Shown: positions 11,104-56,488 of the stretch, in pieces
How positions within the stretch are numbered: position 1 is the stretch's first letter
Layout: each line of letters opens with the position of its first letter
DNA from: Chryseobacterium indicum
Lineage (GTDB): Bacteria > Bacteroidota > Bacteroidia > Flavobacteriales > Weeksellaceae
Direction of reading: 5' to 3'
DNA length: 64,000 nucleotides
Assembly (NCBI RefSeq): GCF_021504595.1
Contig: NZ_JACSGT010000001.1
Location: 1,364,001 to 1,428,000, forward strand
Program-made: the position numbers and the translations under genes
Notes under the pieces: generated by a model
Seen by the model: only the letters and a program-made list of their open reading frames with translations
Told to the model about the DNA's origin: nothing
Databases searched by the model: none

Positions 11104-11185
11104 GATGACGGGAATTTTAGCCCCGATTGTAATGAAAATCCTTTTTTGCAAAAAAAGATTGTAATGGAAAGCGGGAAATAGCTCC
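11104..11185 (-). repeat. Dispersed hairpin element, copy C (short form)
   Basis: On the minus strand it begins GGAGCTATTTCCCGCTTTCC and ends AATCGGGGCTAAAATTCC, like copy B at 56140. The core differs: ATTACAATC, a T-run/A-run hairpin around TTTTTTTGCAAAAAA, then ATTACAATC. The terminal pairing AGC-n5-CCCG with CGGGGCT is intact. No coding potential. Confidence 0.75.
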
Positions 11186-11331
11186 TGAAAGATATAGATA
11201 TTTTCTGTTGGAGGGTAGATTTCTCCTCCGTCGAAATGACAAATCTGTTGATGTAATAATAAATTGTTATAATAGATTGCTTCGTTGTTTCAGAACTGCG
11301 TTCGCAGACCTTCAGTCTATCGCAGAGACGC

Positions 11332-42600: not shown

Positions 42601-42632
42601 AATGTCCCGCAGCAATGTGGGATATTTTTTTT
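42601..42632 (+). terminator. Terminator after the lipoprotein gene
   Basis: TCCCGC pairs with GTGGGA (one G-T pair), followed by a run of T that ends exactly where repeat copy A starts. Confidence 0.85.
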
Positions 42633-42740
42633 GAAGCTGTTTCGCGCTTTCCGCACTCGCTATTTTCTGGTTTTCGGCGCGGCGAAGCCGCGCCGAAAAC
42701 CAGAAAATGAGCTCAGACAAATGCTGCAATCACGGCTAAA
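42633..42740 (+). repeat. Dispersed hairpin element, copy A
   Basis: Conserved left end GAAGCTGTTTCGCGC with CTTTCCGCACTCGCTATTT, then a perfect 22-bp stem (42662-42683 with 42687-42708) around the loop GAA. The conserved right end GAGCTCAGACAAATGCTGCA follows, then ATCACGGCTAA. Copy B at 56140 has the same ends but a different stem sequence. No coding potential. Confidence 0.85.
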
Positions 42741-42885
42741 CTGAAGTCTGTGAGTCAATTTCAGGGATAAAATACCATTCAGATTAAGATTTTCCGACAG
42801 CACACATCAGACCTGAGGAAAATTATCTGTTTTTGTTTGTTCCTGAGAAGCAAATTTTTTACTTTTAGCAAAATAATATTTTACA

Positions 42886-56108: not shown

Positions 56109-56139
56109 AATCCGGAAGTTTTACTTTCGGATTTTTTTT
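56109..56139 (+). terminator. Thiolase terminator
   Basis: AATCCG..AAG hairpin with CTT..CGGATT and eight T. The T run ends exactly at the first base of repeat copy B. Confidence 0.88.
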
Positions 56140-56245
56140 GGAGCTTTTTCCCGCTTTCCGCACTCGCTATTTCGGGTTTCGGCGGCGGCTCCGCCGCCGC
56201 CGAAACCCGAAATGAGCTCAGACAAATGCTGCAATCGGGGCTAAA
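56140..56245 (+). repeat. Dispersed hairpin element, copy B
   Basis: Left end GGAGCTTTTTCCCGC with CTTTCCGCACTCGCTATTT, then a perfect 21-bp GC-rich stem (56169-56189 with 56193-56213) around the loop TCC. The right end GAGCTCAGACAAATGCTGCA follows, then ATCGGGGCTAAA. The ends can pair (AGC-n5-CCCG with CGGGGCT). The rest of the 431-bp gap to 56518 is AT-rich and holds only the next promoter. Confidence 0.87.
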
Positions 56246-56488
56246 ATTCCAGGCATCCATGGAAATTATCGGTAAAAATCATTTTGAAAGGTTAAAAAAC
56301 TTTTAAAAATCAAAAGCAATCAAAAAAAACAATATCTAATTGAAATAAGATAATTTTTCTCCTGAAAAATATTCTCTTCGGGCAAGAAATATTTATACTG
56401 AAGCCATATTTTAAATAGCACAATTTTAACGGAATAATAAAATTTTCTCCAAACCAAATAAAAAGCTCCGAATATTCAGCGGTTTTGC

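Follow-up and report, generated by a model that had tools for sequence, protein, structure and literature searches.

The bottom strand of an integron attC site folds so that its ends pair and enclose a variable terminal structure. REP sequences, as defined in the available part of PMC3733652, are palindromes of 20-40 nt that carry a GTAG or CGTC tag at one end. Template switching has as its stated signature, in the accessible portions of PMC8604942 and PMC8794818, the homogenisation of hairpin arms combined with inversion of the spacer. The closest described family to the repeats analysed here is Flavo-1 (RF01705, Weinberg 2010), whose hits in F. psychrophilum lie, according to the available text of PMC9723704, in transcribed regions on the sense and the antisense strand alike, many others lying outside any such region. 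Literature searches by sequence and keyword (the name Flavo-1 not being among the keywords) returned no description of the repeat.

We analysed a window of 64,000 nucleotides from Chryseobacterium indicum, in which a preliminary description had singled out two hairpin elements, here copies A and B. These and a third copy, C, have the following features:

42633..42740, plus strand (the 'top' orientation): copy A, element with type I interior, from sequence reading and genome similarity search.
42636..42741, minus strand: match of copy A to RF01705 (Flavo-1), model positions 1-76, 31.1 bits (gathering score 42).
42662..42708, plus strand: perfect hairpin of copy A, 22 bp with loop GAA, positions 42662-42683 pairing with 42687-42708.
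42643..42646, plus strand: left side of the outer helix of copy A (C-X-Y-G), partner at 42731-42734, with a C.A mismatch at Y.
42602..42632, plus strand: terminator-like hairpin and eight-T tract adjoining copy A on the left, by direct reading.
56140..56245, plus strand: copy B, element with type I interior, from sequence reading and genome similarity search.
56143..56246, minus strand: match of copy B to RF01705, model positions 1-76, 34.1 bits (gathering score 42).
56169..56213, plus strand: perfect hairpin of copy B, 21 bp with loop TCC, positions 56169-56189 pairing with 56193-56213.
56109..56139, plus strand: terminator-like hairpin and eight-T tract adjoining copy B on the left, by direct reading.
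11115..11182, plus strand: copy C, canonical Flavo-1 with a type III-like interior, 72.5 bits; its top orientation is on the minus strand, from 11185 down to 11118.

Copy A begins with GAAGC at 42633 and copy B with GGAGC at 56140. The perfect stems of 22 and 21 bp with three-base loops that had been described earlier are there in the sequence, as is the reported flip of the outer closing pair: X-X' is G-C in copy A and C-G in copy B, and the neighbouring Y-Y' pair is C-G in copy B but C.A in copy A. Folded as DNA, copy A has z = -6.25, with none of 200 shuffles equally stable. Elsewhere in the window, positions 11217-11240 of the minus strand read GTCATTTCGACGGAGGAGAAATCT, apparently a copy of a second short hairpin repeat (GTCATTCTGAAAGAATCT-like), one frequently met after the element; hairpins resembling the GTCATTCTGAAAGAATCT repeat also occur within some element interiors (L284, L147, L392).

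The preliminary description had proposed a whole-genome search as a check, and copies A and B turn out to belong to a large group. With copy A as the query, the host genome (G000) returned 35 matches at E <= 0.001, a few of them reversed arms of one hairpin, and in total it holds at least 43 dispersed intergenic elements: 33 elements and nine more, obtained by pattern searches and reading, plus the copy at 11118-11185, which lies outside the patterns. None of the first 42 (33 + 9) overlaps an open reading frame of at least 100 amino acids by more than 30 nt. In the top orientation the consensus is TTTWTYA, then the left edge, then GGAGC-n5-C X Y GCTTTCC ... CAATC Y' X' G GCTAGG. Six interior types exist within one genome, with outer ends common to all: type I reads ACTCGCTAT..ATGAGCTCA and contains the long stem, type II TRTATCTTTT..AAAAGGATGCC, type III TGCAATCTTTTT..GGATTTTC, type IV ACTCCTCGC..GGGGTAACC, type V TTCCTCATTGC..GCGGGATTTTC and type VI GCTACTCGC..GAGCTCAGACATRCCGC; a copy in another species (L228) lacks any hairpin. 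The left edge is sharp at the T motif and the right edge is weak, fading past GGCTAGG. Conservation of the left edge is similar in 75 independent loci on the Chryseobacterium side and 20 loci of a second family, with an identical T motif (T at -5 in 70/75 and 20/20 loci). A MITE, another candidate of the preliminary description, would, if derived from a DDE transposon, have terminal inverted repeats and a target site duplication; here terminal pairing is limited to AGC/GCT and CXYG/CY'X'G, and empty sites are too diverged for a duplication to show. Where AGC and CXYG are normally separated by a five-base bulge, the Flavobacterium-like loci L374, L376, L379, L383 and L385 can instead have some 25-35 bases, making this a second variable insertion point. 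Of the left-only and right-only hits in G000, four (L294, L307, L308, L315) were read in search of an autonomous version, a gene enclosed by the same two ends; these four look coding, and on this reading the idea was rejected.

At the gathering threshold, an Rfam search of the window finds only copy C and misses A and B, but an E-value-based search matches all six interior types to RF01705, all on the bottom strand. The preliminary description recognised no named family, but one does exist; one of its suggestions, a family of small structured RNAs, is how Flavo-1 is catalogued. Scores reach 79.7 bits for L378, 70.4 for L137 (type III), 63.7 for L164 (II), 45.7 for L295 (V) and 37.5 for L291 (IV). 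In the host genome, types II, III and V score 45.5-72.5 bits, above gathering, and seven type II loci and one type V locus exceed the gathering score. Among 20 further type I loci, 17 match RF01705 over its full length on the bottom strand (25.1-36.7 bits, E <= 1), and three have no match even at E <= 1; for type VI, six of seven loci match (24.3-33.1 bits), the exception at E <= 1 being L292. The GCTTTCC and CAATC blocks and the CXYG/CY'X'G helix are common to the canonical copies and the other interior types. Below threshold, unrelated families also appear: among type I loci, mir-942 and mir-737 equal Flavo-1 in score, and BSnc120 comes close to it on copy A. Since unrelated hairpin families can score in this range, a single weak Rfam match proves little for long hairpins. 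What sets Flavo-1 apart is its recurrence (17/20 loci), on one strand only, in the right place, at full length and with the end blocks, and the bottom strand had already been proposed from wobble polarity before the Rfam match. Copies A and B are therefore probably a divergent, long-hairpin (type I) subfamily of Flavo-1, in a family that behaves like a non-autonomous dispersed element and not like a single sRNA gene; we speak of a divergent subfamily and not of curated members because neither copy reaches the gathering score (42 bits). The Rfam cut-off thus misses the Chryseobacterium copies of types I and VI.

The right-end pattern is present in 21 of 120 genomes of the family (8/33 genera) and its type II version in 55 of 296 genomes of the order (9/90 genera), all in families f1 and f2 and none in families f67-f80; the strict left-end pattern occurs in 2/198 genomes in the class. 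The second family reached, f2, is apparently Flavobacteriaceae, and genus g34 would be Flavobacterium. Copy A had no match in E. coli genomes, copy A and L378 had none in plasmids or phages, and copy C had none in plasmids. As for viral carriage, 39 stretches of viral contigs match the right end and ten of these also a lax left end, but none of the ten matches Flavo-1 in Rfam at E <= 1, and the idea was rejected.

Two genomes were compared with G000 at orthologous positions, G339 (labelled as the same species) and G388. For 33 element positions of G000, a flank partner was found at 32 in G339 and at 30 in G388, with both flanks clear at 28 and 26, respectively. Because close relatives share most positions, the family looks mostly quiet now. 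Across species, the locus of copy A is occupied in seven of 26 resolved loci and empty in 19 (30 were fetched, four of them unresolved), and that of copy B in 10 of 30; the occupants are of type I or type III, and how far from the upstream gene they start varies between loci. Among the loci compared, none showed a transposition event with either a clean empty site or a target duplication. At the position of locus B, L216, L221 and L224 from other species carry a different intergenic repeat with GCTCCGTAGGAGC. In one pair (L316 in G000, L330 in G339) the upstream flanks agree at 328/338 positions up to the element and the downstream flanks are unrelated, while one interior is of type I and its counterpart of type II. 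This places the element at a rearrangement junction; L254/L241, L158/L359 and L296/L352 also have one matching flank only. The orientation of the elements in G339 gives p = 0.016 with dnaA taken as the origin, and by skew halves 27/35 elements run along the skew-positive strand compared with 68% of the sampled coding length. No significant bias was found in G091, G511, G585, G531 or G601 (13/33 places were listed for G601 and 13/14 for G585), and a replication-linked strand bias or strand-specific insertion is unsupported by orientation in these six genomes. In G339, dnaA lies at 1183 and the sampled GC skew flips near 2.6 Mb, and the origin may not be at dnaA.

The earlier suggestion of a dispersed family with paired changes is right. 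In a 22-copy alignment, 97.0% of the cells of the named structure are paired, compared with 86.2% after shuffling, and 62 cells are changed on both sides against 14.3, a value reached by 0/500 shuffles; structures slid along the same alignment are only 35.4-50.5% paired. For the outer helix we used 139 elements, collected with X and Y left free, which form 97 locus clusters, leaving out copies L013-L132, whose search pattern had fixed Y = C. With one representative per cluster and 10,000 shuffles, X is Watson-Crick in 94/97 and Y in 89/97, compared with shuffle means of 69.7 and 37.9 and maxima of 80 and 54. In the Flavobacterium-like set, Y is paired in 27/27, with four pair types. The covariation of X and Y over independent loci, beyond any shuffle, points to a constrained fold of the outer helix; the AGC/GCT outer pairs are nearly invariant and uninformative in this respect. 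The non-Watson-Crick cases, a small count by cluster and position, are C.A 8, C.T 3, C.C 2 and G.T 0, and as C.A on the top strand is G-U on the bottom strand, this wobble polarity favours a fold of the bottom strand.

The long stem behaves differently. In 92 copies, 1989/2004 stem pair cells (99%) are Watson-Crick, with G.T in three and A.C in six. Among the orthologous pairs with both flanks matching, 19 stems were compared with each of the two genomes and gave 10 (G339) and 20 (G388) double substitutions, of which 7 and 13, respectively, are transversion pairs without a wobble step, together with 9 and 14 one-sided substitutions and two loop inversions in each. The pairs L314/L325, L316/L330, L007/L286, L254/L241, L007/L258, L158/L359, L296/L352 and L310/L351 were left out; a looser set gives 13 and 22 double and 9 and 14 one-sided changes, with loop inversions in 2 and 3 of 21. 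The paired-indel counts (17 and 8) contain artefacts of stems that end early (L334, L335) and were not used. Flank identity to G000 in the looser set is 95.3% for G339 and 92.5% for G388, and by simple arithmetic arms evolving independently at the G339 flank rate (4.7%) would show about 42 one-sided changes and one double change per 466 columns. Individual copies are informative as well: L344 is half-converted, each arm coming from a different version, L342 has a single A.C intermediate, and the inner hairpin is inverted between L309 and L326. Terminator hairpins from the same flanks, a small control of eight per comparison, had no double change in 144 pair cells, and their four changes were all one-sided G-U. 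A stem that is 99% paired and nearly free of G-U, with paired transversions, loop inversions and half-converted arms, bears the signature of template switching and not that of selection on RNA. We infer that the long stem is rewritten by template switching during replication rather than by slow compensation through G-U, although one-sided changes are not rare (9 and 14), and arm correction is thus incomplete or slow. The preliminary description had read pairing-preserving changes as a sign of either selection or the copying mechanism; copying fits the long stem, and selection is arguable for the outer helix but not for the perfect pairing of the stem. Paired changes are the standard proof of functional RNA structure, and here one element has both kinds, covariation in the outer helix that no single local copying event could produce and covariation in the stem that is best explained by copying, making it a natural test set for telling selection from template switching.

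Flavo-1, type I included, could consist of small RNAs that act in trans and have the bottom strand as their coding side, with the long hairpin selected as RNA structure. This is in keeping with the Rfam type of RF01705 ('Gene; sRNA'), with the row for Flavo-1 in the available part of the Weinberg 2010 table (y, n, n; Bacteroidetes) and with an outer helix that covaries and wobbles on the bottom strand, but it is unlikely given a stem nearly free of G-U, the presence of tens of copies in each genome without relation between their sites, and the lack of clear enrichment of a TAnnTTTG promoter beside the 5' end (15/84 loci; shuffles mean 10.8, maximum 19). The transcription pattern of F. psychrophilum (available text of PMC9723704), with Flavo-1 in sense, in antisense or without transcription, is likewise easier to reconcile with a dispersed element than with an sRNA gene, and together our results put in question the classification of Flavo-1 among sRNA genes. 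It is more doubtful still that the repeats are structured 3'-end elements, kept beside terminators, that protect or end upstream mRNAs. Copies A and B do directly follow terminator-like hairpins and the left neighbour is co-oriented at 25/39 loci (42 items, three without a left neighbour), but at the other 14/39 it is opposite, with seven divergent pairs among them, the conserved blocks are not a terminator, and the evidence for folding concerns the opposite strand.

Turning to mobilisation, the earlier suggestion of a REP-like element moved as single-stranded DNA by a RAYT (Y1/HUH) transposase found no support. A Y1 match is found in 15/15 copy-rich genomes but in 13/24 without pattern hits, in sets picked by us from 39 genomes by pattern counts, and this presence pattern is confounded by phylogeny; the host genome itself has three full and one weak Y1 transposase matches. 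The fold of the element is strand-specific, and Quentin 2018, in its available part, mentions a Bacteroidetes subclass 2.6 with 'atypical secondary structures'. However, 0/53 fetched Y1 loci (a subset of the Y1 matches, among which L009, L012 and L481 overlap) have an element beside the gene, right-end matches near Y1 being limited to L454, where a genuine element lies about 2.7 kb away, and L478, where a match at about 1.1 kb looks fortuitous. Wherever the flanks of a RAYT-like gene were read, the gene had its own, different REPs, and our element has no GTAG- or CGTC-tagged palindrome of 20-40 nt, copies A and B spanning about 106-108 nt with ends G(A/G)AGC and GGCTA. We therefore rejected simple RAYT mobilisation and regard the RAYT reading at large as improbable. 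L464, L466, L471, L473 and L477 are RAYT-like genes ([NS]H[IV]H, YIH[QN]NP or close) flanked by their own inverted REPs, several of which resemble CACGAGCGGGACGCTCGCGCCAGCG, and they may represent the subclass 2.6 named in the available text of Quentin 2018. There is a slimmer chance again, slight at best, that the family is a SINE-like retroposon, in which target-primed reverse transcription at T-tracts would copy in a bottom-strand RNA that ends in an A-rich 3' tail. The sharp left edge at the T motif, the weak right edge and the bottom-strand fold would agree with this, and among ten fetched reverse transcriptase loci there is one, L442, where an element and the match are about 0.6 kb apart, but the T motif is position-specific and not a tail of varying length, and a reverse transcriptase (PF00078) is found in only 8/15 copy-rich and 9/24 copy-poor genomes. 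Retroposition by a resident PF00078 enzyme was rejected, RVT_1 being absent from 7/15 copy-rich genomes. At L442, which is Flavobacterium-like, the Flavo-1 type element lies at 827-907 and the nearby reverse transcriptase match is possibly a group II intron.

The family is most likely a non-autonomous, formerly mobile element that inserts beside T-tracts. The element lies directly to the right of the T-rich motif, at the junction of TTTWTYA and GGAGC, and its two ends close on each other through the short constrained helix of the bottom strand, with the interior hairpin as a variable module. Insertion may have proceeded via a folded single strand recognised by an enzyme. After insertion, the stem would evolve through template switches during replication: the polymerase would use one arm as the template for the other, a process that homogenises the arms and inverts the loops. 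A bolder version, which we hold as possible but on balance doubtful, is that Flavo-1 is a T-tract-targeted mobile element whose bottom strand, single and folded, is moved by an undescribed enzyme, with an exchangeable hairpin module that is reset by template switching and thus diversifies fast while remaining almost perfectly paired.

The elements share with Flavo-1 (RF01705, Weinberg 2010) their ends, the folded strand, a full-length covariance model match and a taxonomic home, but types I and VI have another inner module, a long perfect stem and scores under gathering, and, unlike in Rfam, the family is read here as one of dispersed elements. Like the REPs of RAYTs (GTAG and CGTC families), they are dispersed intergenic palindromes with strand-specific folding; unlike them, copies A and B measure about 106-108 nt and not 20-40, their ends pair mutually, and no RAYT examined is flanked by the element. 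With attC sites they have in common the bottom-strand fold, the pairing ends and the variable inner structure, but they lack the attC core motif by eye and are solitary, not linked to cassettes. Finally, arm homogenisation, loop inversion and one-step paired changes are also found in the quasipalindromes corrected by template switching that are described in the available portions of PMC8604942 and PMC8794818, with two differences as far as those portions go: here the same hairpin is present at tens of loci, and its loops invert freely, whereas the rRNA loops in the quasipalindrome comparison are conserved.
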